Below, piece by piece: positions 9,653-47,698 of a stretch of 64,000 nucleotides of DNA. The stretch comes from Natronosalvus amylolyticus. GTDB taxonomy: Archaea > Halobacteriota > Halobacteria > Halobacteriales > Natrialbaceae. Numbering within the stretch: position 1 is the stretch's first letter; the number at the start of each line of letters is the position of its first letter. The notes under the pieces were generated by a model. It did not search any database. It had not been told where the DNA came from and saw only the letters and a list, made by a program, of their open reading frames with translations. A program made the position numbers and the translations under genes. The DNA lies in NCBI RefSeq assembly GCF_024298845.1, contig NZ_CP101159.1:1-64000 (forward strand), read 5' to 3'.

Positions 9653-9674
9653 AACAAATATGTCGTGATTTGAG

Positions 9675-9682
9675 TATTTAAA
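9675..9682 (-). promoter_or_regulatory. TATA box of the TIR operon
   Basis: TTTAAATA on the minus strand is centred about 27 bp upstream of the GTG at 9652. This is the normal distance for a leaderless haloarchaeal promoter and decides the start codon of the TIR gene. Confidence 0.6.
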
Positions 9683-9755
9683 ACCAAGGGGACTTTTCAC
9701 TAATTTCTGGGCTCGGCTAGCAACACCTGTGTACCTACGAATCGCAGTGTTCGAT

Positions 9756-27574: not shown

Positions 27575-30400
27575 CTACTCTCGAACGAGACTGAATGTTT
27601 TTCTCACATCATCGCGAGATTGATACCCAACCTCATCGAAAAGTTGTAGATAATCGCTTGGAGAAATTCTCCCGGTTTCCGCGGCAAGAACGAAAGTCGC
27701 AAATGCCGCCGAGGGAAGCAACAGGACGCCTTGTGATTCCGCATCTGATCCTGCGTGCTCTCCGAAGTCAGGAGCACCGATCGTTACTTTCCGGGTTAGC
27801 GATGTCTTCCGAACGATATCTGTTGCATCATTAGCACCAACGACGTCATTCTCAAGATCCTGCTTAGACTTGCACTCTATCGCAATTTCAACAGGGTCTC
27901 CATCTTCCTCGATATATCTACCAGAATCATCTTTGATCCGAATCTTAGCTTCGGCAAATCGTTGATGACCAGACTCATCAAACCGTTCAACGTAGAAGTC
28001 GTCAACTGCTTCAAGCCGTTCGAGACAATATTCCTCGAATTCACTCTCGGAACTAGATAATAGTTCTTTGTAGGCCTGCCTATCTACGCCAGCATCACGA
28101 GCGTCAAGAAGAAGATGCTTTTTCTCTTTCTCAGCCCCTTCACAGTACGCATTAATTGCTCGTCGGGTGAATGTGTAGGCTTCACTACTTCTCATATTTC
28201 CAAATAATTCGAAAACGTTTCCCTCCGCAATCTCACGTGGATGTTGAATATCTAGCCGAGTCTGAAAATCAATAACCCTATCTCGATCAGTGACTATCCG
28301 TCTTTTGACAAACCCAACACCATCATCATTTACACCATATCGTGTCCGGTAATACAGATTAGAGAGTAAATCACCGAATTCTTCATCTAAATCATTATCA
28401 GAGTTGCTGAGAATCTGTCCGAGATCTTTGACAACCCGGGCTGCAGTCGGAGCGAGACGCTCCCTAACATCGCTTTCTGTCCTGCTATCTACAATTTGAT
28501 AGTTATCAATTGCGGTTGAAACTTCCTCACCAGATGTCCACGCGGCAAGGACTTCACCAGTTGCTAGACCATGATTTAGATTGCTATCGTTTGGTGCGTC
28601 CCACGGCAATTTCTGTCGGATTTCTTCGAGGCTAGTCTCGGGAGGATTTGACCATCGATACAGCCGACACATTTCAAATTCAGAGGTCATCGCAATCCCT
28701 GTGAAGAAAGCGGTGAGGTCAAATTGATCTGAGGAGTCTAGAGTCCTGAGATATGCAACGCCTGCAGCTACAGTATTTGGGGAAATGAGACGCTTAGAGG
28801 TCGATGTTCCAAGAGGTGTTAACTGGAACTGTTCCCCACTTTCTGAGCCTTTAATTTCTTCAGCCATTCCTATCTCGGCGAGCGACTCCACAGCAGACTC
28901 GAGATTGTCAACAGTTGCGTCTCGGTCGAACTCATGATATCCATAGAACGAATCCGAAAGGAAATCACAGATGCCTGCCGGACTCTCGCACTCCCGAATC
29001 AGATCTAAGAGAATGTTTGTATCAGTTGCGTCAATCTCCGACTCAATGTCTTCTGGAGTTTCATCTACGTATTGGTTTTTTAGACCATCCTTCTCGAAGA
29101 AGTTCTGTGCAAAAAGCACAGATTCGCCCTTCTCAGTATAGCCGGGTCTACCTGCTCTGCCAGCGAGATTTTTATATTCGCCCACAGTCAGATCCCGTCC
29201 GTACTCACCCGATCCTCCGACCCGAGGCTTGTCAATAAATACACGGTCGACTGGAAGATTGATTCCGGCGGCAAGGCTACTGGTTGCCACGAGGACGCGA
29301 GCTGCACCTTCCTCAAACCCATCTTCAACAACATTCTTCAGATCTTGGGATAAGCCAGCGTGGTGAAACACAACACCGTGCTTTGCGGAGTCAACAAGGT
29401 TTTGTACGGACTCGCCAGAAGACGTTGCTTCCTCATTGATTCTATCGCTGAGTGCATCAGAAGCGACTTCATCAATCTCGATACCCGTAGAAGACCAATC
29501 CTCTCTAATATGGTCAGCAAGCATTCCAGCGATTTCCTCCGTTCGGTCCCTCTTCGGGGCAAAAACCATTATTCGTCGCTCTCGTCCGCCTTCTGTCGGT
29601 TCAGCAGTTGAGAGATAATGGACAATGGCGTTCTTTTTTGGATCCTCAAATCGCCGTGGAAAACCGTTGGTCTCGATCGATTCACCATCTCTAAAAAATT
29701 CGATCCCACTGCGATCTGTCTCCTCAAGATATATTCCTTCATATAATGGAATCATGCGCCAATCACCTGAGTCACAATTCCCCCCATCAATCCAATCAGC
29801 AAGATCGTCGCAATTCGGTGCTGTAGCACTCAGACCAAGGATCTGAATCGAAGGATGATTTCGCAGCATTTTGGTCAAGACGACTTCAAGACGAGGTCCT
29901 CGTGTGTCGTCACCCAGAGTATGGAATTCGTCAAAGACAGCGCAAGAAATCTCTGATAGATATTCAGGGTGATTCCGGAGATAGAAATCGAATTTTTCGA
30001 AGGTCATTACTACGATATCGGCTTCGAATAGTTCACTCGGATCGTATTCTTCAGCTCCGGACGCGCTCTGGATATCCAGGCTGAACGTGTCACCAATAGT
30101 TCGATTGAACTCATCTCTTTTTTCTTCCACAAGGGGACGATATGGGACGAGAAAAAGACAACAACTTCCAGGATTTGACCTGTAATTCCTTACTATCGAA
30201 ATTTCGGCAGCGAGAGTCTTTCCTGTTCCTGGCTTTGCTGTCATCAAAAAATTATCACCCTCGAGAAGACCCTCGTTGATCGCTTCAATCTGGGGCGTCC
30301 AGAGTTCTGTAATTCCACGATCTTCTCGTAGATGAGTTACGTAGAGCGTTGGGAACTCATGCTCTTCAACTAACCAACTCACATCCGTGGAATCTGGCAT
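27575..30400 (-). CDS. Ski2-like DEAD/DEAH helicase with C-terminal nuclease-like domain
   Basis: A 941-residue superfamily 2 helicase. Walker A (AKPGTGKT) is at 55-62, the DEFH box at 157-160, LSAT follows near 195, and NLAGRAGRPG (motif VI) near 410, as in Hel308/Ski2-like enzymes. The region after about 480 resembles winged-helix and ratchet parts. The C-terminal 120 residues contain EIAIECKSK (Glu842, Lys844) after an Asp-rich strand, a PD-(D/E)XK-like core. A TATA-like element at 30421-30432 is 27 bp from the ATG at 30400, so the mRNA is leaderless. Low G+C suggests transfer. A defence helicase-nuclease is likely; it stands alone. Confidence 0.8.
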   Translation of the reverse strand: MPDSTDVSWLVEEHEFPTLYVTHLREDRGITELWTPQIEAINEGLLEGDNFLMTAKPGTGKTLAAEISIVRNYRSNPGSCCLFLVPYRPLVEEKRDEFNRTIGDTFSLDIQSASGAEEYDPSELFEADIVVMTFEKFDFYLRNHPEYLSEISCAVFDEFHTLGDDTRGPRLEVVLTKMLRNHPSIQILGLSATAPNCDDLADWIDGGNCDSGDWRMIPLYEGIYLEETDRSGIEFFRDGESIETNGFPRRFEDPKKNAIVHYLSTAEPTEGGRERRIMVFAPKRDRTEEIAGMLADHIREDWSSTGIEIDEVASDALSDRINEEATSSGESVQNLVDSAKHGVVFHHAGLSQDLKNVVEDGFEEGAARVLVATSSLAAGINLPVDRVFIDKPRVGGSGEYGRDLTVGEYKNLAGRAGRPGYTEKGESVLFAQNFFEKDGLKNQYVDETPEDIESEIDATDTNILLDLIRECESPAGICDFLSDSFYGYHEFDRDATVDNLESAVESLAEIGMAEEIKGSESGEQFQLTPLGTSTSKRLISPNTVAAGVAYLRTLDSSDQFDLTAFFTGIAMTSEFEMCRLYRWSNPPETSLEEIRQKLPWDAPNDSNLNHGLATGEVLAAWTSGEEVSTAIDNYQIVDSRTESDVRERLAPTAARVVKDLGQILSNSDNDLDEEFGDLLSNLYYRTRYGVNDDGVGFVKRRIVTDRDRVIDFQTRLDIQHPREIAEGNVFELFGNMRSSEAYTFTRRAINAYCEGAEKEKKHLLLDARDAGVDRQAYKELLSSSESEFEEYCLERLEAVDDFYVERFDESGHQRFAEAKIRIKDDSGRYIEEDGDPVEIAIECKSKQDLENDVVGANDATDIVRKTSLTRKVTIGAPDFGEHAGSDAESQGVLLLPSAAFATFVLAAETGRISPSDYLQLFDEVGYQSRDDVRKTFSLVRE

Positions 30401-31326: not shown

Positions 31327-32574
31327 ATGGAACCTCTTAATCCTGATTCTGAGCTCCGAGACACGCTTCAACCGCGGTCAAAGGAGTTTCTGGACCGGTT
31401 ATACACGGTCTTTTCGGGCGATACCGTTGATAGGAAGAAAGAGACATTGATCGAGATCATCGCCGACCGCCACGAGGACCAGCTCAGAGCGTTTCTCGAT
31501 GACTACGAGAAACTGAGCGATCGGAACGTGAACCGGCGATACGGGGAAGAGTACTTGCACGAGTCCCTCGGTATCGACCGGGAGAAGCTGGATGTCAAGA
31601 ACCGGTACGAACTCCTATTGGTGCTGTATGAGGAGGATCTGGTCGACAAACTCGACTCGTTGATCATCCGGTCGGAACTGTTTGCGGTGAAAAACGAACA
31701 GGAGTTCCAGCTTGGCGAGGAACTTGACCTCTCGAATATCGAGGAACAGGTGACTCGGTTCCTCCACCATACGAACCGAGAAGAGCAAAAGCTCGATCCG
31801 ATGGCGATCACAGTCGATGCGGACGCCGACTCGGCGGCCCTCGACATCCACCAGGAATACGGCCGAAAATACGCGAATACGTTTGAGTTCCGCAAGACGG
31901 CGTCACAGGACTGTCCGGTCAATCCAGCCATCACGGGTCGCCAGCACTACCCTCTGCGAAACATCACGGTCGGCATCGAAGACACCGGTGGCGGCACACG
32001 CATTACATTCTCCAAATCAACCGATAAGTGGGAGGAGACGTTCGAGGATCTCTTCTCCCACGTCTTCCAAGTTGACGATCTCTTCGTCCGGCTGGAAGAA
32101 ACAAGAGCGCCAGGCGTCGAACAGATCCAGCACGGCGCAAAACAGGCGGCAGAGGACGATGAATCCGATACCGCGGACTCCGTCCGGGAACTTGTCGAAT
32201 CCCGGAAGGAGAGCGCCATCGAACGGGTTCATGAACAGAACACCCCAGAGGAAATTACGGAGGATCTGGAACAGCGTCTGCAGTCGGTCCAGTTAGTGGG
32301 CTATACGGTCTCAGACGACCAGTCGACCGGAACCCACGAATTCACGATTATCGCGGATAACCTGGACGAGCTGTTCGAAACGGTGGAGGGGATTGAGATC
32401 AGCTTCGAGGACTATCTGGAGAAGGCTGAAGCGGACAACATCCGGCTGGTGCTGCGGATCCAGAACGAGCTGGTCAAACTCGATTCCGCCGACTGGAAGC
32501 CGCTGCGCGGGAACCGGATCGCGGCCGAAAACAAGCAGGCGATCGAAACACTGCTGGGGGATCTCGATGGATAG
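31327..32574 (+). CDS. Uncharacterised first gene of the type III restriction island
   Basis: A 415-residue acidic, mostly helical protein. I see no known domain. Features: a helical N-terminal third (KEFLDRLYTVFSGDTVDRKK), a strand-rich middle (RQHYPLRNITVGIEDTGGG), a charged linker near residues 270-300, and a C-terminal part with a beta-alpha pattern (HEFTIIADNLDELF). A good ribosome-binding site GGAGGA (31314-31319) precedes the ATG at 31327. Its end overlaps the next gene by 8 bp (ATGGATAG), so the two products are made together and probably interact. A sensor or adaptor role in defence is inferred from the neighbourhood only. Confidence 0.75.
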   Translation: MEPLNPDSELRDTLQPRSKEFLDRLYTVFSGDTVDRKKETLIEIIADRHEDQLRAFLDDYEKLSDRNVNRRYGEEYLHESLGIDREKLDVKNRYELLLVLYEEDLVDKLDSLIIRSELFAVKNEQEFQLGEELDLSNIEEQVTRFLHHTNREEQKLDPMAITVDADADSAALDIHQEYGRKYANTFEFRKTASQDCPVNPAITGRQHYPLRNITVGIEDTGGGTRITFSKSTDKWEETFEDLFSHVFQVDDLFVRLEETRAPGVEQIQHGAKQAAEDDESDTADSVRELVESRKESAIERVHEQNTPEEITEDLEQRLQSVQLVGYTVSDDQSTGTHEFTIIADNLDELFETVEGIEISFEDYLEKAEADNIRLVLRIQNELVKLDSADWKPLRGNRIAAENKQAIETLLGDLDG

Positions 32575-34006
32575 CAAGCTGCTTGACTCACTCCACGCGG
32601 TCATCACCCGCGGGAAGCCTGTGCCCGTTGAGAAGGTGCCCGACCCACTCGAGCCAGGCGAGTACATCGTCGAACGCGTGCAGGAGCCGACAACCTGTCC
32701 CAAATGTGAAGAAGGCATTGTCATCGTGGACGATACTGACGACCGGTTCGAAATCCGGTGCCATAACAACCATTTTGAAACCATCCCGACAGCCGATCGC
32801 CTGCGGTACGCTCCTGATTTGAACCAGGTGCTCGCAACGGTCGCCGATGATCTCAATCTAACGCTGACCTCATTCGACGGCCAGAGCCTCCCGCGGTTCG
32901 CGCAGGCAGAGACAGCACACGGGACGCTCCTCTATTTGATCTACGCACCCCGGAACTACTGCGACACGGTCAAGCAGATCTATGAGGATGCGATCGAACG
33001 GGGGCAGCCCGCCCTCCTGATTACACCCCAGGACGAGATCACCGATATCGTCGAACTCCAGTTCCTGTTCTCGGTCGGCCATCTAGTCCAGGCTGTCCCC
33101 TTCTCCAAACTCGACAATCCCGCACTGCTGAAGCAAACGCTCAGAACCGCCGAGGAAGTTGAAAACCTCGGACAGGACATTATAGAACAACGGTTCGGGG
33201 CGTCCCAGGACACGCTGCGCGAACGAGCAAACACGAATCCCCGGTACATCCTATCGGTCTTGTCCAATATCCGCATGTTGCGGGAAAACGGTGAAATCAA
33301 ACCGGGATCAGGCGACCTCCTCGAACAGACGGCAGAAGCAGTCTTCATGCACCTGTTCCCCACGCAGCCGGACCGGGGTGGAGAAGCCGATTCGGGCCAG
33401 AACCTGCCGGACAATGTCTTCTACCTCTGGGAGCAAGGCAGCTACAAGCATACCGACTATGAACCGGTGCTCGGCGTCGTCGACACGAAGTCCGGGAAAA
33501 CCGCCAACTTCGCCAAAGAAAAAGCCAGCGGAAAACACGACAACTACCTCGACCTCGCCCGGAAGCACTCGTTCCAACACGGCAGCGTGGCACATATCTT
33601 CGTCGTGCTCGATATCAACGGGCGACAGGAGATCAAGTACTTCGACCGGATCAAAGAGGAGTATGCGGAAAACATGTACATGGTGGTACTCACCCTTGAC
33701 GCGCTCACCACTATCTTTGCCGCCTACCTCTCGTCCGTCATCTCGAACGAACTGAAGCTCGGTAGCACCAGTTTCACGCGGGCCATCTATCCCTTCTTCC
33801 ACCGCGACACCTTCAATGCCGACCAGAATACCGATCTCCGGCGGCAGTTCCGGATCGTCGGCCGCTCTCAGGAAGGCTACCAGATAAACCTGCTGGAACG
33901 CCCTGACCTCCTCGTCATCAACCAGGACACGGTCATCACCCACTTCCGGAATATCATCGACAGAGACGCGGAGATTAAGGAGATACTTGGTAGGTACTTC
34001 AAATAA
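32567..34006 (+). CDS. Zinc-ribbon protein with VDTK nuclease-like domain
   Basis: A 479-residue protein translationally coupled to the gene before it. Residues 44-69 form a zinc ribbon (CPKC at 44-47, then Cys65, His66/His69). The C-terminal half contains YEPVLGVVDTKSG with Asp306 and Lys308, followed by a long helix and the strand VAHIFVVLDING. The DTK motif and following helix resemble the FokI-type PD-(D/E)XK nuclease core. The middle has a nucleotide-fold-like strand-helix pattern (GQPALLITPQDEITDI). It may be the cleaving partner of the 415-residue protein. The nuclease call is inference from motif and context; I know no characterised homologue. Confidence 0.65.
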   Translation: MDSKLLDSLHAVITRGKPVPVEKVPDPLEPGEYIVERVQEPTTCPKCEEGIVIVDDTDDRFEIRCHNNHFETIPTADRLRYAPDLNQVLATVADDLNLTLTSFDGQSLPRFAQAETAHGTLLYLIYAPRNYCDTVKQIYEDAIERGQPALLITPQDEITDIVELQFLFSVGHLVQAVPFSKLDNPALLKQTLRTAEEVENLGQDIIEQRFGASQDTLRERANTNPRYILSVLSNIRMLRENGEIKPGSGDLLEQTAEAVFMHLFPTQPDRGGEADSGQNLPDNVFYLWEQGSYKHTDYEPVLGVVDTKSGKTANFAKEKASGKHDNYLDLARKHSFQHGSVAHIFVVLDINGRQEIKYFDRIKEEYAENMYMVVLTLDALTTIFAAYLSSVISNELKLGSTSFTRAIYPFFHRDTFNADQNTDLRRQFRIVGRSQEGYQINLLERPDLLVINQDTVITHFRNIIDRDAEIKEILGRYFK

Positions 34007-34057
34007 CTGGAGCAGCCAGTACACGTCACGGCCATGGCCTACTGTCCTTCCCGCCAC

Positions 34058-34960
34058 TCAAGAAACGCTTGCTCCGTCCGTCCGATACGTCAGAGTACTG
34101 TCGGCATACGCTTTAACGATCGATTCCTCCAGCTGTACCCGCGAACCAATAATGCCGACGTCTCCAGCGTATACTGGTTCGTCCGGCTCTAGTACCGCCG
34201 GGCCATACGGGTCACCCGGCTCGGTGTCAGGGCACACATCTTGCTCTTGCCAAAATCGCTTGATCTCCTGCAATGATGTTCGAACGGTATCCCGAATCGA
34301 AGGGTGATCGGCGGACTGCCAGCCGTCCAGATACCAGTGCTCCCCAGAGTAGGCGGCTTTCTGTACCCCTTTCCAGTCCAACCCCACGATATCGGCTGGA
34401 GGCTCATCGGTGAGCGTCGGCTGTGTCAACGTCTTGATCACGGCGTACTACCGGTGCGGGCTTCCTCCGAGCAGGTGGGCCTTCCGGCCGCGCCATGCAC
34501 TGATCTTATCAATGTCCGCCGCCTGCACATCGGAGTATCCCATCGGATAGCCCTGTACCACACCGTCGTCAATTATATCGAACGCGGCCCGGAACTTCGA
34601 CCCGGCTATGAACTCCTTGTATGGATGATCGTCGTCCAGCTGGCGAGCGACCTCAGTCAGCGTCTAGGCCTCCCTCGGCGTATGCGCTTCGCCGAGAACG
34701 GCTACCGCCGGATCATACTTCTTGAACTGGTTCATGTAGCGATCCACATCCGGATCACGGAAATCGTTGTCAAGGATAACAACCGGCAGGTCAACGTTCG
34801 GATAGTCCTCACAGGGGTACGTATAATCCTCCCGGACGCCCGGTGCATACCCGAGCTCGTACGCATCGGTCGCATACGAGTGCCGGTGAAGAAACCCGAC
34901 GTAGTCTGCTTGCTTCGCTGCGGTGTAGTCGATCCCATATCACTGGTTTTCCTCCAGTCC
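34058..34960 (-). pseudogene. DUF6610-like gene with two amber stops
   Basis: Read through, the frame gives QADYVGFLHRHSYATDAYEL, AVLGEAHTPREA, a TAG (34664-34666), TLTEVARQLDDDHPYKEF, KAHLLGGSPHR, a second TAG (34448-34450), and YAVIKTLTQPTLTDEPPADI with the rest to 34058. This matches the haloarchaeal DUF6610 family over its length. Both stops stand where Gln is expected, so each is one CAG-to-TAG change. The start is also disturbed by a probable one-base deletion near 34940. The 127-residue open part at 34058-34441 is the C-terminal third. It is a pseudogene lying inside the restriction island. Confidence 0.75.
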
Positions 34961-35083
34961 TCAAGAATTTCAACGTCGTCGGCACAGGTTGTTTCGCTTG
35001 CCCAATTGTCCTTTAATGGTGTCGGGTACTAATACGACACATTTTCACGATATCATTAGGCCTGGTCTGCAGCCGTGAAGACA

Positions 35084-35094
35084 ATATATAAATA
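35084..35094 (+). promoter_or_regulatory. TATA box of the Mod-Res operon
   Basis: ATATATAAATA is centred about 29 bp upstream of the ATG at 35119. It makes that ATG the likely start in a leaderless or near-leaderless mRNA rather than the TTG at 35101, which is too close to the box. Confidence 0.65.
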
Positions 35095-35118
35095 GCTCCT
35101 TTGGGCACAAACGATGTA

Positions 35119-38100
35119 ATGGTTCAGGAATCACTGGAGTCTCTTCTCGATGTTAATGGGGTCGGCCAGTCAACGTTGGAAGATATCAGGGATACAGGTT
35201 TCAATTCGTTATCTGATCTTGCTGGGGCAGACCGGACCGATCTCAAGGAAATCAGTGGCATTGGCTCATCGACTGCTGACAATATTCTACGGTTCCTAGA
35301 CAGGGAAGGGCTTCGGGAAGCAGACGCTGTCACGGAGAATCAGCGGAAGCTACAGTCGCTTCTTCGAGACCTATTCCAGTTCGATGCGGCAGATCTAGAT
35401 TTCGGTATCTACCGGATTATGAACCAGAAGCGGGATGTGATTGATGAGTTCATCGAGCAAAATCTCATTCAGGCAGTGCAGGACGGGCTCGAAGACTTCA
35501 GCGAAGCAGAACGCGAGGAACTGGAACTGGAGGTGGAGGCCGCTAGACAGGACGTTATCGACAATCTTCCTGATGACGCGCTAGATGCGACGGGCCAGTT
35601 AAACGAGGAATATCGCGATTTTCCGGTCGGTGAACGGTACATCGAGGCGGTTGAGGCACTCGAGTCGTATCAGGTGTCACAGGAGACCGAGGCCCAGGTT
35701 TTCAATGATCTCTATAAGTTCTTCAGCCGGTATTACGAGAACGGCGACTTCATCCCTAAGCGACGCTACTCTTCCGAAAACAAGTATGCAATCCCGTATA
35801 ACGGTGAGGAAACCCATTTCTACTGGGCAAACCAAAATCAGTACTATATCAAAACCAGCGAACAATTCTCCAACTACCGGTTCCGGGTAAGAAAACTCTC
35901 TATATCCTTCGAATTACGTTCTGCCCATGTGGAAACCGATGACAAAAAGGGAGAGGATCGTTATTTCGTCCTTCATGACGACGACCCAATACGATACGAT
36001 GCCGACGCGGACGAACTTCGGATTCTGTTCGAATTCCGGCCGTTAACAGATGCAGACTACGAAAAGTACGGGATCTCATCACGATCACAGACGACGCAGC
36101 GAGATATCCGCAACAACGTGGCAGATGACCTTCTATCCGAACTGCCTGACTCCATCGAAAACCAGTTGTCACAGAGCGCGCACCAGAGCGACAAACGTGT
36201 TCTGGACTACCATCTGTACCAGTATACAACAAAGAACACGACGGACTATTTCATTCATAAAGATCTTCAGCGCTTCCTCGAGCGGGAACTCGAGTTCTAC
36301 ATCAAAAACGAAGTAGTAGACCTTGATGGCCTCCAAGGAAGCGAATCTCAAGGGATGACCGAATTAGATCGGGCGAACGTTGTCCAGCAAATCGGTCAGC
36401 GCATAATCACCTTCCTGGCACAGATCGAAGAGTTCCAGAAGAAGTTATACGAGAAGAAAAAGTTTGTCACGAAGACAGAATACTGTCTATCTCTTGAGAA
36501 TATTCCTAACCGGTTCTATTCACAGATCATTGAGAGCGAGGAACAGATCGCGGAATGGCGAGAGCTGTACCGAATCGAAGAGCAGGATGAACAGGGCCTC
36601 GGCCGGTTTACGGACGACACCGAAATTGATGAGGACTTTTTGGTAGACCACCCGTATTTCATGGTGGACACGCGGTTCTTTGACTATGAGTTCAAACACG
36701 AACTTCTTTCGACGTTCGCTAATTTGGATGACGCAGTTGATGGTGTTCTAGTCAAGGGCGAGAATTTCCAGGCCCTAAACCTTCTGATGGAAAAATATCG
36801 GGAAGAAGTAAAATGCATTTACATTGATCCCCCGTACAATACGGGGAACGACGAGTTTGTCTACAAAGACAGCTATAGACATTCGTCCTGGCTGAGCATG
36901 ATGCAGGATCGGCTATCACTTGGCCGGGAACTGCTCCGTGAGGACGGCGTTCTCTTTTCCAGTATCGACGACCGAGAGTACCACCGTCTGATCAGCCTAT
37001 TGAACTCGATACTCGGCGAGGAGAACCATATTGCCAGTTTCGTATGGAAGCGTCGTACATCGACCGGGATGCGGAATGAGCCAGTCTCCCCCGATCACGA
37101 GTACGTCCCGACCTATGCAAAGTCCCGAGACGACAGCCTGCTGTACGGCCTCCCGCCGGATCCCGATGATTATCCGTATGAGGACGAGCGTGGCATGTAC
37201 CGGAGCACCGATTTGACCGTCGGTATGGGGAAAGACCAGCGTCCCGGCCAGTACTACACCATCGAGAATCCCCGGACTGGCAAGGAATACGAAGCAAACC
37301 CGGAACGCGTCTGGCGGTTCTATCCTAAAACGATGGAACAGATGATCGAGGACGATATGATCATCTGGCCGGATGAGCAGGACGGGAATATGACGCGGCC
37401 CCGGTTCAAGACGTATTATGATCCAGAGGAGTCCGCAAACCCGATTTCCACTTGGGTGGAAGAAGCCTCGACGAATGACCGCACTATTGAGGAAATGGAA
37501 ACAGAGTATCTGACGTCCATTCTGCAATCCCATCGGAACGAACACGGTGGCCGGGAACTCCGCGATCTGTTGCCGGACAGCGAAACGTATTATCCGAAGC
37601 CTGTCTCGTTAATTCGGTCTTTCATAAGAGCCGCCACCCGTGATGATGATATGGTCGTCGACTTCTTCGCCGGGTCGGGTACAACTGCTCACGCCGTTAT
37701 GGATCTCAACCGGGAGGATAGCGGTAATCGCAAGTATCTCCTGGTCGAGATGGGTGACTACTTCGATACTGTCCTGAAGCCTCGGATCAAGAAGGTGGCT
37801 TACAGTTCCGAATGGGATGATGGCGAGCCACAAAACCAGAACGGGATCTCCCAGGTAATCAAATATCACGAGATTGAATCGTATGAAGATAGCTTGGACA
37901 ACATCTCGTTCTCTGGCGAAGGACAAGCCGCGCTCGACACGTTTGACGACTATCTCTTAAAGTACATGCTCGAGTTCGAGACACAACAAAGTGAGACCCG
38001 GCTGAACATCGATCAACTGAGCCACCCGTTCGAATACCAGCTCCATATCACTCAAAACGGAGAGAAAACGACGAAGACCGTCGACCTAGTCGAGACGTTC

Positions 38101-38367
38101 AATTATCTGCTGGGGCTGCAGGTAGAAACGGTTGAGTCACACGAGCATCAGAACCGGACATACCGGGTTGTTCGTGGTTCCAGGGATGAGGGGACTGTCA
38201 CCGTCATCTGGCGCAATAGCGAGGAGCTAGACCTGGAGACTGAGCAATCATTTGTGGAAGAGACGCTTCTGAATGGCGATGAGGATCTCGTGTATGTCAA
38301 CGGCGATTCGGTGGTTTCCGATGCTCGGTCGTTGGAATCTGTGTTTAAGAACCGTATGGAGGCGTAG
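35119..38367 (+). CDS. Type III DNA methyltransferase (Mod) with N-terminal helix-hairpin-helix domain
   Basis: A 1082-residue adenine methyltransferase. Residues about 8-60 form a double helix-hairpin-helix (LLDVNGVGQSTLEDI; EISGIGSSTADNI) not usual in Mod proteins. Residues 75-550 are the long accessory region seen in large archaeal Mods (FGIYRIMNQKRDVIDEF). The catalytic motif DPPY is at 570-573 and FAGSG, which binds S-adenosylmethionine, at 850-854; this motif order is the beta class used by type III systems. Its stop is 3 bp before the next start. It should methylate the host sites recognised by the Res helicase. The ATG choice follows the TATA box. Confidence 0.9.
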   Translation: MVQESLESLLDVNGVGQSTLEDIRDTGFNSLSDLAGADRTDLKEISGIGSSTADNILRFLDREGLREADAVTENQRKLQSLLRDLFQFDAADLDFGIYRIMNQKRDVIDEFIEQNLIQAVQDGLEDFSEAEREELELEVEAARQDVIDNLPDDALDATGQLNEEYRDFPVGERYIEAVEALESYQVSQETEAQVFNDLYKFFSRYYENGDFIPKRRYSSENKYAIPYNGEETHFYWANQNQYYIKTSEQFSNYRFRVRKLSISFELRSAHVETDDKKGEDRYFVLHDDDPIRYDADADELRILFEFRPLTDADYEKYGISSRSQTTQRDIRNNVADDLLSELPDSIENQLSQSAHQSDKRVLDYHLYQYTTKNTTDYFIHKDLQRFLERELEFYIKNEVVDLDGLQGSESQGMTELDRANVVQQIGQRIITFLAQIEEFQKKLYEKKKFVTKTEYCLSLENIPNRFYSQIIESEEQIAEWRELYRIEEQDEQGLGRFTDDTEIDEDFLVDHPYFMVDTRFFDYEFKHELLSTFANLDDAVDGVLVKGENFQALNLLMEKYREEVKCIYIDPPYNTGNDEFVYKDSYRHSSWLSMMQDRLSLGRELLREDGVLFSSIDDREYHRLISLLNSILGEENHIASFVWKRRTSTGMRNEPVSPDHEYVPTYAKSRDDSLLYGLPPDPDDYPYEDERGMYRSTDLTVGMGKDQRPGQYYTIENPRTGKEYEANPERVWRFYPKTMEQMIEDDMIIWPDEQDGNMTRPRFKTYYDPEESANPISTWVEEASTNDRTIEEMETEYLTSILQSHRNEHGGRELRDLLPDSETYYPKPVSLIRSFIRAATRDDDMVVDFFAGSGTTAHAVMDLNREDSGNRKYLLVEMGDYFDTVLKPRIKKVAYSSEWDDGEPQNQNGISQVIKYHEIESYEDSLDNISFSGEGQAALDTFDDYLLKYMLEFETQQSETRLNIDQLSHPFEYQLHITQNGEKTTKTVDLVETFNYLLGLQVETVESHEHQNRTYRVVRGSRDEGTVTVIWRNSEELDLETEQSFVEETLLNGDEDLVYVNGDSVVSDARSLESVFKNRMEA

Positions 38368-38370
38368 ACC

Positions 38371-41300
38371 ATGACGGAACGTCTGGAACACCGGCTGGTC
38401 CTCTGTGATTACTTCTATGAGCTATTTGGCCAGAATGACTTCGATGATCTTCAGGAAAAATTAAGAGACATTGAGGAGGGCTTCACGGAGGACGGGCACA
38501 GTTACTTTTTCCACGTACTCACCGCGATTGAGTGTGTGCAAATCCCGGAGCAGAAGCTTGCTGACTATGACCTCAACATCAAGGAGTATATGGAGAAAAT
38601 CAACCGAGTTAGAGACCGGCCGATCCAGCTCAAGTATTTCCAGTATCTGGCCGCACTCTTCACCGAGATTTATCTGGACGCCTATTTCAACCGGAAAGAC
38701 GAGTTCTTGGATGACCTCAACGCACACCTCCAGGACTGGAATACAGCCAATACCAGTAGGGCGGACTATGTGTTGAGCTATCAGAAAGAGGACCTCTGTA
38801 AGCTAGCGTTCTGGATGGCTACGGGTAGTGGCAAGACGATCATCTTCCATATCAACTATCACCAGTTCCTCCAGTACAACGATGCGGATCTTGACAACAT
38901 TATACTGATCACACCGCGAGAGGAACTGACCGAGCAGCACATCAAGGAGATGCGGAAGGACAATATTCCCTGTAGTGCCTTCAACAAGGAAGCGCGGTCT
39001 CTGTTTGCGAATGATGATCAGGAGGTCAAAGTCATCGACATCCACAAACTGAATGAAGAAGCGGGGGAGAAAACCGTCAATGTCGACGCTTTTGAGGGGA
39101 ACAATCTCGTGTTTGTTGATGAGGGGCACAAGGGCAGTGGTGGCGATGTCTGGATGGACCAGCGTAGCCAAGTGGTTAGCGATGGGTTCGTCTTTGAATA
39201 CAGCGCCACCTTCGGACAGGCGATCAACGCCGCGAACAACAAAACGCTTCTTGAAGAGTATTCGAAAGCGATCCTCTTCGACTATTCATACAACTATTTT
39301 TTTCAAGACGGCTACGGCAAGGACTACCGTATCCTCAATCTGGACACGGACGTATCCAAAGACGTGACCGATACCTGGCTGCTCGGGAACCTGCTCTCGT
39401 TCTACGAACAGATGCGGTATTACGAGGAGAACGAGGGAGCGGTGAAGGACTATAAGCTAGAACGTCCCCTCTGGATCTTTGTCGGTGGTCGGGTGAACGC
39501 AATCTATACACGGCACGGCGAGAAAACGTCTGATGTTCTGACCGTCCTCCAGTTCCTGCAGCGATTCCTGAGTGATGCCGAGTGGGCCGAAGACCGGATA
39601 CAGGAACTGCTCAACGGGACGTCCGGACTTGAATCACCGGACGGCAGGAACGTGTTTGAAGAGGGATTCACGTATCTTGACGACCATGGACTGACTGCCG
39701 CGGAAATCTACGCCGACGCACTTACCTGTCTGTTCCACGTGGAAGGCCCATCTCACCTGCAGGTGGCTGAACTCAAAGAAGAGGACGACGAACTCGGTGT
39801 GAAGGCAGCCAACTCCGATGCCTACTTCGGCGTTGTCAATATCGGGGATACCAGCGCATTCCAGACCCTTGTCGAGGATCATGCTGAAGAGATCACTCAG
39901 GATGAGGACGAGTTCACCCAGTCACTGTTCGATAATATCAAGGACGGCGACTCCAATGTGAACATCCTCCTTGGATCGAAGAAGTTTATCGAAGGATGGG
40001 ATACGTGGCGCGTGTCCAACATGGGGCTGATGAACGTCGGGAAAAGCGAAGGCTCCGAAGTTATCCAACTGTTCGGCCGCGGCGTCCGCCTCAAGGGCAA
40101 AGAGTTCTCTCTGAAGCGGAGTAGCCGGCTGAAGGCCGATGACCAGCCGCCGGAACACATTGAGATCTTGGAGACGCTGAACATATTCGGCGTTCAGGCA
40201 GACTATATGCGACAGTTCCGTGAGTATCTCGAAGAGGAGGGAATCGAGCCGGAATACTGGAAGCGCGATCTCGAAGTCCGAGTAAAGAACGACCTGCTTG
40301 ATGAAGGGCTTAAAGTACCACGAGTGGATGATGACCGTGAGTTTAAGCAGGAGGCGACTGTTGCGCTGACGCTGGATTCAGATGTCTGCCCCCGTGTTGA
40401 CCGCCGGCCACAGGTACAGGTTCTTGAGAGTGTTACGGAGACGTCCCATGCGACAGAGGAATCGGATCAGGAGCGAACGATACCGGATACCGTGATTCCG
40501 CTTTTGGACTGGAACGAAATCTACTTCGAGATACTGCAGCATAAACGCCAGAAGGAGTTGACCAACCTTGCGCTTGACAAGGATGTTCTCCGGGAGATCA
40601 TCGAAGAGCAGGCGTACACGCTGCACTGTCGTCCGGCTGATGTGAATCCGGACGGGTTCAGCGATCTCGAGGATATCCAGCGGCTTGTCGAGATCCTTCT
40701 CAAATCCTACGTGGATGAGTTTTACAGCCAGAAGCAGGAGAGCTGGGAGAGTCAGCACCTCAGCTATCAGACCTTGGATGCCGAGGATAGGAACTTTCCC
40801 GACAACTATACGCTTACCATCCCCGAATCGAACGAGGCGGTTATCGAGACCGTGACTGAGGTGCTGGAAGAAGCTACCGAAGTGTATGAACGTGACCTGA
40901 AAGATTTCCCGAATGTCTACTTTGACAAGCATCTCTATCAGCCCTTGTTCACGACAGATCCACAGTTCGAGTCGATCAGCCCGGTTGGGCTCAACAATGG
41001 TGAAGAGAAATTTGTTGAGGATCTGCGTGACTACGTCCAGAACGACTGGAACGATGCAATAGATGGAGATCAGGTCTTCCTCCTGCGGAATCTGTCACAG
41101 AAAGGAGTCGGGTTCTTTGAAGCCGGGAACTTCTATCCCGACTTCATCCTTTGGATAAAGAATGGGGCGGAGCAGCGAGTCGTCTTCGTCGATCCGAAAG
41201 GATTGCAGCACATCGGTATCCACCATAAGAAAATCCAGTTCTACAAGACGGTCAAAAAGATCCAAGAACGGTTAGACGACGACCAGGTTGTCTTGGAATC

Positions 41301-41439
41301 ATTTATTATCTCAAACACTTCACCAGACAAGGCAGAAGAGACCCATGGCCTGTCGAAAGAGGAGTTCGAGGATCACCATGTCCTGTTCCAGGATGACCCC
41401 GGTGCGTATATCGGCCAGCTGTTTAGCAAGATCCAGTAG
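38371..41439 (+). CDS. Type III restriction enzyme helicase-nuclease (Res)
   Basis: A 1022-residue superfamily 2 ATPase. Walker A TGSGKT is at about 151-156, the DEGH box at 250-253, and motif VI lies in EVIQLFGRGVRLKGK. The C-terminal region has a PD-(D/E)XK nuclease core: Asp924 in FYPDFILW and Asp941-Pro-Lys943 in VFVDPKGL, spaced as in Res endonuclease domains. The ATG follows the Mod stop by 3 bp. With Mod it forms a complete type III restriction-modification pair; all catalytic residues look intact. Length is usual for the family. Confidence 0.9.
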   Translation: MTERLEHRLVLCDYFYELFGQNDFDDLQEKLRDIEEGFTEDGHSYFFHVLTAIECVQIPEQKLADYDLNIKEYMEKINRVRDRPIQLKYFQYLAALFTEIYLDAYFNRKDEFLDDLNAHLQDWNTANTSRADYVLSYQKEDLCKLAFWMATGSGKTIIFHINYHQFLQYNDADLDNIILITPREELTEQHIKEMRKDNIPCSAFNKEARSLFANDDQEVKVIDIHKLNEEAGEKTVNVDAFEGNNLVFVDEGHKGSGGDVWMDQRSQVVSDGFVFEYSATFGQAINAANNKTLLEEYSKAILFDYSYNYFFQDGYGKDYRILNLDTDVSKDVTDTWLLGNLLSFYEQMRYYEENEGAVKDYKLERPLWIFVGGRVNAIYTRHGEKTSDVLTVLQFLQRFLSDAEWAEDRIQELLNGTSGLESPDGRNVFEEGFTYLDDHGLTAAEIYADALTCLFHVEGPSHLQVAELKEEDDELGVKAANSDAYFGVVNIGDTSAFQTLVEDHAEEITQDEDEFTQSLFDNIKDGDSNVNILLGSKKFIEGWDTWRVSNMGLMNVGKSEGSEVIQLFGRGVRLKGKEFSLKRSSRLKADDQPPEHIEILETLNIFGVQADYMRQFREYLEEEGIEPEYWKRDLEVRVKNDLLDEGLKVPRVDDDREFKQEATVALTLDSDVCPRVDRRPQVQVLESVTETSHATEESDQERTIPDTVIPLLDWNEIYFEILQHKRQKELTNLALDKDVLREIIEEQAYTLHCRPADVNPDGFSDLEDIQRLVEILLKSYVDEFYSQKQESWESQHLSYQTLDAEDRNFPDNYTLTIPESNEAVIETVTEVLEEATEVYERDLKDFPNVYFDKHLYQPLFTTDPQFESISPVGLNNGEEKFVEDLRDYVQNDWNDAIDGDQVFLLRNLSQKGVGFFEAGNFYPDFILWIKNGAEQRVVFVDPKGLQHIGIHHKKIQFYKTVKKIQERLDDDQVVLESFIISNTSPDKAEETHGLSKEEFEDHHVLFQDDPGAYIGQLFSKIQ

Positions 41440-41466
41440 GTAGGTTGGCCATGAATGGGAACTGTC

Positions 41467-42030
41467 TCAGAACTCGCCCATCAGTCCGGCGTCCTGAAGG
41501 ATGTCTTTGAGGTCGGCGAGCCGGCTGACAGCCTTGTTGACCTGGCTGACTTCGAGATAGGAGACAGACTGGCTGAAGTCGGTGCTGATAGCCTCAATTT
41601 CATCTTCGAAGGTGGCGAGCTGATCCTGGGTGGAGACAATGACCAGTTTCTGAAGTGTGGGATCAGCGTTCTGTGCTTTCTGGAGGTTGAGGATTGCTGA
41701 GTCGCGGCTTCCCCGGCGATGAACCTCGAACGCGTAGGAGATGACGCCGAGGTTGGCGACCCGAGTGCTCCACCGCACGTCGATCCGGGCACCAGGGCCG
41801 GCCTGGTATTCGTCTTCCACGTCGAAGCCGAGACCATTCCCGATGTCCAAGAGTTTTTCCTGTATCTCATCATGGTCGAAGTCCTCGATGGGTTCCTGAT
41901 GCTCAGGTGACTCACCGGGCTCATAAATGTCAAGTTTCGAGAGGTAGAACAGAAAGTAGTCGACATCAACGTAATCCTGAATGTCCAAGGCCGGGGATTC
42001 CGGCCCCCCAATCAGGTCCAGTCGTTCCAT
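41467..42030 (-). CDS. Hypothetical protein with nuclease-like core, convergent with Res
   Basis: A 187-residue acidic protein. The middle contains ARIDVRWSTRVANLGVISYA then FEVHRRGSRDSAILNL: an Asp, a strand, and an Glu-x-His before a helix, a pattern like degenerate PD-(D/E)XK or Holliday-junction-resolvase-fold domains. The N-terminal third is acidic (DYVDVDYFLFYLSKLDIYEP). It is the second gene of an operon with the one at 42037 (6 bp apart), and converges with Res. Conserved partners of restriction systems often sit this way, but no function is known. Confidence 0.6.
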   Translation of the reverse strand: MERLDLIGGPESPALDIQDYVDVDYFLFYLSKLDIYEPGESPEHQEPIEDFDHDEIQEKLLDIGNGLGFDVEDEYQAGPGARIDVRWSTRVANLGVISYAFEVHRRGSRDSAILNLQKAQNADPTLQKLVIVSTQDQLATFEDEIEAISTDFSQSVSYLEVSQVNKAVSRLADLKDILQDAGLMGEF

Positions 42031-42036
42031 GATCGT

Positions 42037-42531
42037 TTAGATGACCTCGAGAAACGCATCGTAGTCCGCACCGGAGGTGAGACGGTCGGGGACTTGATCA
42101 CCATAGTTCAGCACGTCGAGGGCATCGCGTGCCCGTCGATTGAAGATCGCGCACTGTTCCGGATACATGAAGGTCAGAATTTCAGTGATACTGGCTGAAC
42201 CCAGCATATGCACGTTCTCGTTCAAGATGTCGAACTTCTCCTCGACGGTATCAGTCTCGTACAGCGCATCGTGAAATGCGTCGCGGACAGGACCGACTCC
42301 GTCATTCAGGATCTGCTCGACGATGTAATCCTTGTTACTCCAGCCCCGGAATGCCCAGAGGTTCCGGACCAGTTCACGGACATCTCCTTCCTCAAGTTGC
42401 GTTACCGCGTTCTCAGATAGCAGCTCCGGGATGGTTTGCTTCTTCTCGATCCGGGCCTTCGCGAACTTCTCTCCCGACTCCTCCTGAAACTCCCGATAAT
42501 ACTCCTGGAGTTCCTGATCATCAATCGGCAT
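42037..42531 (-). CDS. Hypothetical protein, first gene of the convergent pair
   Basis: A 164-residue helical protein. A conserved-looking core reads FRGWSNKDYIVEQIL, then LGSASITEILTFMYPEQCAI and FNRRARDALDVLNYG. I recall similar helical segments in proteins linked to restriction enzymes, but cannot name the family. No catalytic motif is evident. It starts at an ATG at 42531 after an AT-rich promoter region and is cotranscribed with the 187-residue gene. Confidence 0.6.
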   Translation of the reverse strand: MPIDDQELQEYYREFQEESGEKFAKARIEKKQTIPELLSENAVTQLEEGDVRELVRNLWAFRGWSNKDYIVEQILNDGVGPVRDAFHDALYETDTVEEKFDILNENVHMLGSASITEILTFMYPEQCAIFNRRARDALDVLNYGDQVPDRLTSGADYDAFLEVI

Positions 42532-43162: not shown

Positions 43163-46100
43163 TTAGTCGGTCACGGTAATTGTGGCACCGAAGATGTCGG
43201 TTGCATCAAAATGGCCGTAGTACAGTGCCCGGAACCGGATCTTTTGGAGGTGGTCGCGAAGCTCGTCGTCGGTCAAGTCGTCGAACTGTTCCGGGTTCAG
43301 TTCTTCTAGGAGCTGTCGGGTTACTTTCTGGATGTCTACGTAGACCGGGGCGTCGTCGCGGTTGTATTCGGTGAGTGTGGCGGGCTGATCCGCCCCGGCG
43401 AGGACAATGGCGTCAAACCCGCTGTGCTGGGTGTCATACACCGGGATCATGGCGTCGTCGACGGCAAACCCGCCGGTCACGTCGTCAGAGGGATGGTACT
43501 CCCCATGGAAGACGTTGCTGTCCGCCAGGTTGCGGCGAGCACGGAACCCGCCGGTGAGAATCGCTCTCGGCTCCTTTCCTCGTTCCTGGTGGTCTCGGCA
43601 GACGGACGTGATCTTGTCGGGTATCGACTCGTAGGCGTCGATCTGGTGGTGGATTAGGTGATCCTGATCCTCTCCCAGCCATTCCTCCAGCAGGCGGTCA
43701 ACGTGGTTCTGTACGCGGCGATCGAGATGGTGAATGAACTGTGCTGGTGGATCGGGGATGAATCCACGTTTGGGGTAGAACACGTTGTAGCCGAACCCGT
43801 CGACGTCAGTCTCGTCGTCGTACGGCCGGGTGTCGAGCCAGCCCAGATCCTTGAAGACGGTTCGGAGCATGAACTGGTCCGTGAAGGTCGAGACGTAGTC
43901 CTCTGTGAAGTCAGCGACCTTGTCCGGATCCAGATTCGCGTCGATCACCCGCTCATCTTCCCGGCGGTTCAGGAGCTCCTCCATCTGTTCATGGAGGACC
44001 AAGAACACCGCTTTCCTCTCTTCCAGGTCCGCAAACTCGTCCTCTGCGACACCGGTAAGCGCTAACTCATCGGCGGAGATGGAGTCGATCGTGTCCCAGA
44101 GGTCGGGGTAGCTCGTCCGGTCGATCGCGCTACTCACCAGCGGGTTGTCGCTCGCCGGCACCGTGTCCGTGTCGTACTCGTCAACGTCTAGGAAGAGCAG
44201 GCCCATCGCGCAGAAAAACACCTGTAGCCAGCTATGGACGGCCGGCTGACTGGCTTGAACGCCCTTGAACACGTCGGCATCCTCCGATTCCCACCGGAAG
44301 AAATCGAGGCGTCCACCGGTACACAGCCGGTAATAGATGTCGACCAGCGTGGAGAATCGGTATGTTTTGAACGATTCGCGGAACATCTCCTGGAACACGG
44401 GTTCCGCAAGGTTGCCCTCTCGGATCTCCCGGTACGCCCATGCCGCAGCCACGAACCGGGACTCCTCGAACCGGGACTGCATCGTGTCGACCGCGTCCTG
44501 TTGTTTCCGCTTGACGGCGAGCTCTTGTTCCAGCCGTTCCTGCTCCGCCTCGTCGTCGGTTTCCTCGAGCTGCCACTGCAGGTCATGGATCCTGCTTTCC
44601 GGCCGAACCATTACGAACTCGTCGTCCCCCAGGTTCCAAACGTTGTTGAACGTCTCTCCGTCCCCTTCCTCGATCGCCAGCCGGAGTAGCTGTTCCAGCG
44701 TGTCGTAGAACCCGGCCAGATCGGTGGCGGCATGGTCGGCCGCGTCGACCGATCGGGCTCCGCCCAAGTCCGCGGCCAGCATCGTCTTGATATTGTCCAG
44801 GGAGGACAGGAGGCCGTTGACCGTTTTCTGGTCGATCGCGGGACTCGCCGCCAGCACGTGGTAGTACGAAGCATAGAGGCCGATCGATTTGTCGAACAGG
44901 TGGGGTTCCTGCTGCCGGTGCTGTGCCAGCGCCAGCCGGAAGAATTCCCCGCGTACCGTGGTAATCAGGTCGGCGCTCCCGGTCTGTGCTGCCCCGTCCA
45001 GGATGTGGTAGAACTCGCGGTAGATCTGGTTGATCAGATTGGAGACCGGGACCGGGGTGCCACCGTAGACTGCACCGAGCTGTCGGTTCACCCGGGTCGC
45101 GTGCTGTAGCAGATCGATATACAGTCCCAGGTATCTCTCCAGGCGGGTCGGGCTGAGATCGGTGATCGCGGCTCGTGTCTCCTCGCCAATCCGGCCCATG
45201 TTTCGCTCGATCAAACGGTCTCCGGTCTTCCACGGCCTGTCGCTGCTGCAATGGATCGCGTCCGCCAGTTCCGCTGCGAACGCGTTCGGGACGTCCTCCG
45301 GCGTAATCGCCGGGTCGGCCACGGATACGACGTCGATCCCCGGCTGGAGTTCCTCCCCGAGACCTAGGTTCAGGAGGAGTGTCGGCTGTGTATCGCCTTC
45401 AAACCGGTCGGCATGGGCCCGGCAGACCTCAACCAGTTTGGATAGGTTGATATCCGCGATATACCCCTCCAGGTCGAGTTCCTGCGCCATGTACAGCCGG
45501 CCGTCACGGTCGACGCCGATTCCGACAAAGTCCGGGAGCATCCGTTCCAAGACGGCCTGCGAGACCGTTTGCCGGTCCTGGTCCCGGAGCTTGAGGTCGA
45601 TGCCGCGCTGCACCTGGGCGACCGCCATTGCGTCCACGGGGTCGAAGAAGATCAGCCGCGCCACCCGATAGTAGACGTAGCCGATCCCGAGGACAGTCCC
45701 GAGAAAAGTGATGAAGGTCGCATCCGCGATCGCTGGGGCCACGCTTTCACCGGATCGGGACATGTAGAGATAGGCCACGAAGCCGGATGCACCCAACGTA
45801 AAATAGATCACTGGCATGATCCGGGTCGAACTGAAGAACTCTTGGATCACGCCTTCCCGGTACTCCGTCCGCGCCGTCTGCTCCAGCAGGAAGATCAGGA
45901 CGATAAAGCTGAGGCTGGTGATCGTGAGCTGGGCTTGCCATGCGTGCTGAACCACCTCCAGCTGTACCCGGTCAACCAGCGCTAAGTCGAGCGATGCCAC
46001 CGCAACTACGACCAGCAGTCCAAGAGGGACCACCCAGAGAAAGCTCCAGTACGTCATCAATGCCCGCTTGTCCCGGGACAAATTGCGGCCTAGCCATCGC

Positions 46101-46291
46101 CATCCCCGGTCGCGAACCTCTCCACGTAGCGCCGTAAGCCGGAGAGAAGCGCCCGGAAACAGGAGGCCTGGACAGCGGCGGTAGGCCGAGACGGCGAGCG
46201 GCCACACGAAAACTGCCACCAAGAATGCAGCAAATCCCGCCACGACCACTACTGCCCCTGCCTTGGAAAGACTCACGCTCGCGATACCCAT
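43163..46291 (-). CDS. Large membrane protein with DUF2254-like N-terminal region
   Basis: A 1042-residue protein. The first 230 residues hold about five membrane segments (near residues 12-32, 82-102, 128-148, 163-183 and 195-215); the segment LTITSLSFIVLIFLLEQ resembles DUF2254-type membrane proteins. The remaining 800 residues are cytoplasmic, helical and acidic, with no known motif except a charged coiled-coil near 460-510 (ETDDEAEQERLEQELAVKRK). TATA at 46314-46324, 27 bp before the ATG at 46291, supports that start in a leaderless mRNA. It could be a membrane effector of the neighbouring defence island; the family is not known to me. Confidence 0.65.
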   Translation of the reverse strand: MGIASVSLSKAGAVVVVAGFAAFLVAVFVWPLAVSAYRRCPGLLFPGASLRLTALRGEVRDRGWRWLGRNLSRDKRALMTYWSFLWVVPLGLLVVVAVASLDLALVDRVQLEVVQHAWQAQLTITSLSFIVLIFLLEQTARTEYREGVIQEFFSSTRIMPVIYFTLGASGFVAYLYMSRSGESVAPAIADATFITFLGTVLGIGYVYYRVARLIFFDPVDAMAVAQVQRGIDLKLRDQDRQTVSQAVLERMLPDFVGIGVDRDGRLYMAQELDLEGYIADINLSKLVEVCRAHADRFEGDTQPTLLLNLGLGEELQPGIDVVSVADPAITPEDVPNAFAAELADAIHCSSDRPWKTGDRLIERNMGRIGEETRAAITDLSPTRLERYLGLYIDLLQHATRVNRQLGAVYGGTPVPVSNLINQIYREFYHILDGAAQTGSADLITTVRGEFFRLALAQHRQQEPHLFDKSIGLYASYYHVLAASPAIDQKTVNGLLSSLDNIKTMLAADLGGARSVDAADHAATDLAGFYDTLEQLLRLAIEEGDGETFNNVWNLGDDEFVMVRPESRIHDLQWQLEETDDEAEQERLEQELAVKRKQQDAVDTMQSRFEESRFVAAAWAYREIREGNLAEPVFQEMFRESFKTYRFSTLVDIYYRLCTGGRLDFFRWESEDADVFKGVQASQPAVHSWLQVFFCAMGLLFLDVDEYDTDTVPASDNPLVSSAIDRTSYPDLWDTIDSISADELALTGVAEDEFADLEERKAVFLVLHEQMEELLNRREDERVIDANLDPDKVADFTEDYVSTFTDQFMLRTVFKDLGWLDTRPYDDETDVDGFGYNVFYPKRGFIPDPPAQFIHHLDRRVQNHVDRLLEEWLGEDQDHLIHHQIDAYESIPDKITSVCRDHQERGKEPRAILTGGFRARRNLADSNVFHGEYHPSDDVTGGFAVDDAMIPVYDTQHSGFDAIVLAGADQPATLTEYNRDDAPVYVDIQKVTRQLLEELNPEQFDDLTDDELRDHLQKIRFRALYYGHFDATDIFGATITVTD

Positions 46292-46619
46292 TACTAACGG
46301 TTCTCTACCCAAGTTATAAATAATATTGAGGATCTGGATGGAACCCTTTGCGACACAAGCGGTGTTTGCTGGTTAGTGACACGGTCTGCGGCAACCAGTT
46401 TCCGAACGTTCGCACCGGTCGATTTCGACCCATACGATTGAGATTGCTCGTCCATAATTAGGTCATTAACAAATTGTCGCCGAATACCTCTGTGAGTTTC
46501 CAGATTCCATAACAAGTCATTGAATTGATTAATAACCAATCGGATTTTAAGTCTGTATGCGTATTTGCCGATTCAATAACTTTTCGAGTGCCTCAATGAT
46601 CTCGAACAACAGTGTCCCG
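46292..46619. other. 330-bp intergenic region
   Basis: It contains the promoter of the large membrane protein (TTATAAATAAT, 46314-46324). A minus-strand frame at 46294-46539 (LLWNLETHRGIRRQFVND) has some coding look and may be the relic of a gene, but overlaps that promoter. Confidence 0.4.
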
Positions 46620-47555
46620 TCACGTATCGTCCATCTCCTCCTCGACGATGTCGATAATTTTTTGAGCAGTCGAACTAATCCGCTCGAGTCGATCGAGAAT
46701 CATCTCCGGGTCATCACCTTCCCATGCAGCGAGGTAGAACACTGACCCACTCGTGTCCAACCCGAAGTATCGACCGACGATGTAGCCGACGGCTTCGGCC
46801 TCGAGTTCACGCTTTGACCGTTCGTCTTCGGTCTCGAGACCACCGTGCAGCAGTGCGTGAGCGTACTCGTGAACGAGTGTAACGCCGAGATCAGCCTCGT
46901 TTTCGCGATCACGGACTTCAACGAGTGGCTGTTTCTCCAGACGATACTGACAGACGCCCTTGGCGCTGCCGTGAGACCATTCCCGATGAGATACGACCTC
47001 GACCTCCACCTCAAGGACAACCGCTGCCTCGAGGAGCGCTGGCACCAACTCATTGGCATTGCCGATTGCCTCGGTCTCGAGTTCCGGGAGTGGCTCTCCC
47101 TCAGTCTGAGAGATATCGAAGACTGGTGCTGGCCGAAAGCCGACAAGCCCCTTGTTCCACTCGTCGGATTCAGTGTCGTCGTACTCGCACTCACTCCGTT
47201 CGTGGTACGACGACGAGTTTCCACACTCGGGGCACTTCCTCGCGATGATCGGTGCCCAGATCCAGATCGCTTTTTCGCCTTCGCTCACACATCGATCGAA
47301 CTCGTTTTGCCACGTTCTGTAGCCAGCGATTCGAGTCGCGTGCGGACACTGAAGCTTGATCAATAGTGTGTTTCGAGGAGAGTAGTCGTGGAACTCACTC
47401 TGGACGTCGAGCCACTCTCTGAACTGGTCGCTCGAGACGGCGCCGTCGACCTCACAGACGAGATCCTCGAGCCATGTTTCGATCGTACCGTGCATCTCGT
47501 CATGCCGGGTATCCGAATCGTCGAACGTTTCCCGGGTGCTGTTGCTCGTAGCCAT
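46620..47555 (-). CDS. ArdC-like antirestriction / zinc metalloprotease
   Basis: A 311-residue protein. The N-terminal 110 residues resemble the ssDNA-binding domain of ArdC (QSEFHDYSPRNTLLIKLQCP, then ATRIAGYRTWQNEF). A zinc-ribbon-like CPECG insert follows. The C-terminal half is a zincin of the ImmA/IrrE type with HEYAHALLHG (His229, His233) and a downstream Glu-rich helix (ELEAEAVGYIVGRYFG). ArdC-type proteins travel on conjugative plasmids and protect incoming DNA from restriction. The ATG at 47555 is preferred to 47561. It belongs to the plasmid backbone rather than the restriction island beside it. Confidence 0.82.
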   Translation of the reverse strand: MATSNSTRETFDDSDTRHDEMHGTIETWLEDLVCEVDGAVSSDQFREWLDVQSEFHDYSPRNTLLIKLQCPHATRIAGYRTWQNEFDRCVSEGEKAIWIWAPIIARKCPECGNSSSYHERSECEYDDTESDEWNKGLVGFRPAPVFDISQTEGEPLPELETEAIGNANELVPALLEAAVVLEVEVEVVSHREWSHGSAKGVCQYRLEKQPLVEVRDRENEADLGVTLVHEYAHALLHGGLETEDERSKRELEAEAVGYIVGRYFGLDTSGSVFYLAAWEGDDPEMILDRLERISSTAQKIIDIVEEEMDDT

Positions 47556-47698
47556 GTTCACTTCAGGTCCCTCGAGTCGAACTCGAGAAGACCGCTGGCC
47601 ATCAGCGGGTCTGAAAAAAAACCACCGTGCGGTCAGCGTCGATATGGTGAACGAATAAGAGAAAGCTCAGCAGCCTTGGAGAACGATCTCCACCAAAG

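Follow-up and report, generated by a model that had tools for sequence, protein, structure and literature searches.

A two-gene haloarchaeal module with a predicted FokI-type nuclease, candidate for DNA restriction or exclusion, beside an ordinary type III restriction-modification pair

In the type IIS enzyme FokI, D450 is a catalytic residue (PMC4081073). RdgC, RexA, Iml3 and Chl4 share one DNA-binding fold (PMC11077077, PMC4080450), and this RdgC/RexA/CENP-N-type fold is described as DNA-encircling or DNA-binding: RdgC and RexA bind DNA non-specifically, and recombination and the repair of forks are functions of RdgC (PMC11077077).

Here we describe two overlapping haloarchaeal genes, A and B, whose predicted products recall both groups of proteins. 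B resembles FokI and Nt.BspD6I in the predicted fold of its cleavage domain and in its PD...DxK residues, but differs from these type IIS enzymes in carrying a zinc ribbon and an alpha/beta N-terminal part, in having an obligate partner, A, and in lacking a methyltransferase; it has no match to the Pfam FokI family. The best fold matches of A, obtained from two libraries, fall in the fold of RdgC, lambda RexA and CENP-N-CENP-L, although A shows no significant sequence relation to RdgC or RexA. The partner of RexA is the membrane protein RexB, that of A a predicted nuclease. The pair is like type IV restriction in that its nuclease has no cognate methyltransferase, but differs in that it has no recognised modified-base sensor. 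With type III Mod-Res systems, it shares neither a component nor linkage.

Gene content of the region

The window (the whole 64-kb stretch of DNA that we analysed) belongs to a contig of 99,460 bp, a haloarchaeal plasmid. Positions 31327-42531, read in the initial annotation as one enlarged type III restriction island, hold three unrelated things rather than a single enlarged system (Table 1). A DUF6610 pseudogene that was absent from that annotation lies between B and Mod, on the opposite strand.

Table 1. Features of the region and of the predicted nuclease B
Feature	Position	Strand	Details
Gene A, 415 aa	31327-32574	+	
Gene B, 479 aa	32567-34006	+	
B, zinc ribbon C44-x2-C47...C65-x3-H69	32696-32773	+	cysteines 20/20, H69 17/20
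B, predicted nuclease domain, about residues 250-465	33314-33961	+	E253, D282, D306, K308
B, predicted catalytic codon E253	33323-33325	+	
B, predicted catalytic codon D282	33410-33412	+	
B, predicted catalytic codon D306	33482-33484	+	
B, predicted catalytic codon K308	33488-33490	+	
DUF6610 pseudogene	34247-34864	-	full-length match to PF20314 (E 6.7e-48), interrupted by two TAG stops in frame
Mod, N-terminal HhH type III methyltransferase	35119-38367	+	neighbour, outside A-B module
Res, type III restriction subunit, ResIII helicase	38371-41439	+	neighbour, outside A-B module
Single gene broken by in-frame TAA	41467-42531	-	

The Mod-Res pair at 35119-41439 is an intact, ordinary and full type III restriction-modification pair, and in this respect the initial annotation was right. 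Mod carries HhH (PF14520, 1.2e-11) and N6_N4_Mtase (PF01555, 2.8e-35) domains, Res carries a ResIII domain (PF04851, 2.5e-13), and both are matched by PADLOC type III models with more than 570 bits each (MTase_III, 595 bits; REase_III, 572 bits). The Mod frame, open to 38367, starts at TTG 35101 or, more likely, at ATG 35119, with its own TATA-like box (read by eye) ~30 bp upstream, at about 35084-35095. Mod adjoined Res in all six other haloarchaeal Res relatives, for which 20 kb were examined. The pair is ordinary here and needs no extra parts, which corrects the earlier reading of the region.

Downstream of Res, a convergent operon of two proteins had been proposed. The two open reading frames on the minus strand (41467-42030 and 42037-42531) share one frame across a single TAA at 42037-42039 ('LEVI*TIMERL'), and we therefore rejected the two-gene operon in favour of one gene that is broken in this sequence, by a real stop or by a sequencing error. 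A relative in Halomarina sp. BND7 is an uninterrupted 353-aa protein that shares 64.6% and 65.8% identity with the two fragments, and its N-terminal part weakly resembles an 8-oxoguanine glycosylase-like (OGG-like) family. On the Halomarina plasmid, an A-B pair lies 2 kb from the 353-aa gene, and no Mod-Res was present in the 25 kb examined.

Predicted structures of A and B

B is composed of a zinc ribbon, an alpha/beta region and a predicted FokI-type PD-(D/E)XK nuclease domain. Both features pointed out initially, the zinc ribbon (CxxC...C) and VDTK, are present, and all 20 sequences keep C44, C47, C65, E253, D282, D306 and K308. An AlphaFold model of B (pLDDT 75.7, with stretches of low pLDDT in the nuclease region) was compared with the PDB using Foldseek: the top nine matches were all FokI or Nt.BspD6I (E 6e-5 to 2.6e-3), the best being 6.1e-5 for FokI (2fok) and 3.4e-4 for Nt.BspD6I, as local matches with a whole-chain TM < 0.3. 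A profile alignment with FokI, whose sequence was checked against 1fok, was not significant alone; it aligned FokI PDG...VDTK with B PDN...VDTK, placing D282, D306 and K308 of B in register with D450, D467 and K469 of FokI, of which we take D467 and K469 to be catalytic as well. The invariance of the residues, the fold matches to FokI and Nt.BspD6I and the VDTK register together support D306 and K308 as catalytic residues, and make it very probable that B is a nuclease of the FokI type, its activity being predicted from the model and from conservation. The suggestion of the initial annotation that VDTK marks a nuclease with Asp306 and Lys308 as key residues is thereby strengthened.

In the model of A (pLDDT 82.0, pTM 0.54), the N-terminal part, roughly residues 8-121, is made of helices, and two beta lobes come after it. 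In a fold search of the PDB, matches 1-4, 7 and 8 were members of the CENP-N/Chl4/Iml3 group (human CENP-N, yeast Chl4 and Iml3; E 0.025-0.14), and among the BFVD viral models the best named matches, ranked second and third, were annotated as RdgC or recombination-associated (E 0.003-0.004). These matches, which were not chosen beforehand, are individually weak (TM < 0.4; E at least 0.025 in the PDB and at least 0.003 in BFVD), but two libraries converge on one fold, and this support is stronger than either match alone. The RdgC crystal structure was not among the top 50 PDB matches of A, and profile comparisons with hhalign were not significant for nine RdgC sequences (P 0.14) or for lambda RexA (P 0.15); shuffled controls for these comparisons, one of which gave an odd score of 136, were not counted as evidence. 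From its model, A is probably a DNA-gripping protein with a putative RdgC/RexA/CENP-N-type fold, an assignment less certain than that of the B nuclease. A sequence search of solved structures gave no convincing match for A or B, nor did Pfam, NCBIfam or PADLOC, and neither protein convincingly matches a catalogued anti-phage component.

Distribution and possible role of the A-B pair

Relatives of B were found in 20 out of 391 Halobacteria genomes, belonging to 17 of 86 genera, and A was detected by sequence in 17 genomes, every one of which carries B. The two genes overlap by 8 bp in the window, and A directly adjoins B at 18 of the 20 loci, counting one (L038) where a divergent 424-aa open reading frame occupies the position of A; of the other two, one lies at a contig end and one (L039) has a related split open reading frame. 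Distances between A sequences mirror those between B sequences (mirror-tree r = 0.947, a value reached in 0 of 5000 permutations and to which operon co-inheritance contributes). The coupling of the two genes, proposed in the initial annotation, is thus borne out. No gene other than A and B was common to more than five of the 20 neighbourhoods, indicating that there is no conserved third partner. B was absent from six other genomes of the same genus. Copies of A-B are located on plasmids, where they are annotated as 'hypothetical protein', and also on contigs large enough to be chromosomes; none of B was found on phage or viral contigs. No relatives outside Halobacteria were detected in a 393-genome sample of the phylum, or in pattern scans of genome collections, the patterns reaching only part of the family.

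A credible methyltransferase motif IV-like gene was located within three genes of A-B at two of 19 loci, at one of which it belongs to another gene set. A dedicated cognate methyltransferase was therefore not consistent across the 19 loci, and we rejected A-B as a classical type II restriction-modification system, which would place such an enzyme beside the nuclease. With a cut-off of 1e-10, the neighbours of A-B matched 274 PADLOC families, compared with 65 for an equal number of proteins elsewhere on the same contigs, a comparison that is only suggestive since it counts families rather than proteins and is inflated by large helicases. The two closest relatives adjoin gene sets of the composition DUF499/DUF1156/helicase and DUF6361/PLD/helicase. 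A mobile defence module would explain why the pair occurs so patchily on plasmids and large contigs. The literature searched contained no description of a FokI-like antiphage pair, and the section on new defence systems of the 2014 archaeal dark-matter paper (PMC4158269) does not describe A-B. The combination is plausibly undescribed and a candidate for a new defence against viruses or plasmids.

An enlarged type III system, with A, B and possibly the downstream gene as extra subunits of Mod-Res, would account for A-B and Mod sharing a strand in the present genome alone, with some 1.1 kb between them, but we consider it very improbable. Co-occurrence with Mod-Res, which the initial annotation had set as its test, was found neither at the 19 other A-B loci, where the sole match to Mod or Res was one of 50 residues to the HhH segment, nor at the six other Mod-Res loci, which contained no A, B or broken downstream gene in the 20 kb examined, and only the present genome among those sampled carries both. 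Because co-localisation fails in both directions, an opposite-strand pseudogene intervenes and Mod has its own TATA-like box, A-B is separate from Mod-Res; the downstream gene, in addition, is broken. The enlarged system is accordingly rejected, and A-B is a stand-alone, probably horizontally spread module, independent of Mod-Res. What stands of the multi-component system initially envisaged beyond type III is A-B, as a credible undescribed system, whereas Mod-Res and the downstream gene are not part of it.

As to what this module does, we give about an even chance to a mobile, stand-alone, two-gene DNA-restriction or exclusion function in haloarchaea, the module lying beside an ordinary Mod-Res by chance. 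One specific version, unlikely in itself and counted within that same chance, is a modification-dependent (type IV) enzyme, in which A or the zinc ribbon reads modified bases and B cuts. The defence-gene context and a nuclease without a dedicated methyltransferase are consistent with this version, while Pfam, NCBIfam and PADLOC revealed no known modified-base reader domain in A or B, and the non-specific DNA binding of RdgC and RexA (PMC11077077) speaks against it. It is also conceivable, if rather doubtful, that the nuclease of A-B serves plasmid maintenance or recombination/repair instead of defence, with an RdgC-like A guiding B at forks, ends or conjugating DNA. A-B often lies on plasmids, in the vicinity of genes for integrase, TFB, primase and VirB4, which makes such a role possible, and the function of RdgC in recombination and fork repair (PMC11077077) agrees with it; the patchy spread, the copies on contigs of chromosomal size and the helicase/nuclease defence families nearby count against it.

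If A-B is a restriction or exclusion module placed by chance next to a type III Mod-Res within a cluster of defence genes, A would grip or encircle double-stranded DNA through its RdgC/RexA/CENP-N-like sheet, and B would dock on A, on DNA or on both through the zinc ribbon and cut with its single-site FokI-type PD-(D/E)XK domain, the fold and residues of which come from prediction and conservation. FokI-type domains usually have to pair before they can break both strands, so the trigger would be the coming together of two A-B units on their target. In the absence of a cognate methyltransferase, discrimination between self and non-self must rest on something else, which may be base modification, the topology of the DNA, or its ends or forks. 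More tentatively, A-B could be an as yet undescribed immune system in which A senses the shape, the ends or the forks of foreign DNA, and not its sequence or methylation, and recruits the FokI-type nuclease B, as an archaeal relative of lambda Rex with a nuclease replacing the membrane partner. Were these proposals true, haloarchaea would possess a methylation-independent two-gene DNA cutter with a FokI-type blade, A would use a fold found also in RdgC of bacteria, RexA of a phage and kinetochore proteins of eukaryotes, Rex-type exclusion would be linked to restriction, and a high-salt organism would supply a FokI-type cleavage domain.

Other genes in the window

Upstream of A, on the minus strand, a 941-aa Hel308-like helicase (27575-30400) has a nuclease-like C-terminal stretch (IECKSK) and HamB-type helicases as its best PADLOC matches; a relative of it directly adjoins A-B in another genome (L033:10805-13153). 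A MarR/HVO_2833-type regulator overlaps a DUF6036 nucleotidyltransferase at 12868-14594 (+), forming a possible toxin-antitoxin module, and genes annotated as a MarR-family regulator and DUF6036 are also found downstream of A-B on Haloferax gibbonsii pHG3. Two large proteins are a 1633-aa product without a Pfam match (1823-6724, +) and a 1049-aa probable membrane protein without a convincing family match (43163-46312, -). At 8197-9700 (-), a membrane protein (8xMP, PF24838) adjoins a ThsB-type TIR-domain protein (PF08937) in a possible small defence pair, and a protein with an Mrr-type restriction endonuclease domain (PF04471) is encoded at 19916-20749 (-). Finally, the product of 46620-47561 (-) has weak ArdC-N and M78 peptidase matches and is a possible anti-restriction protein.
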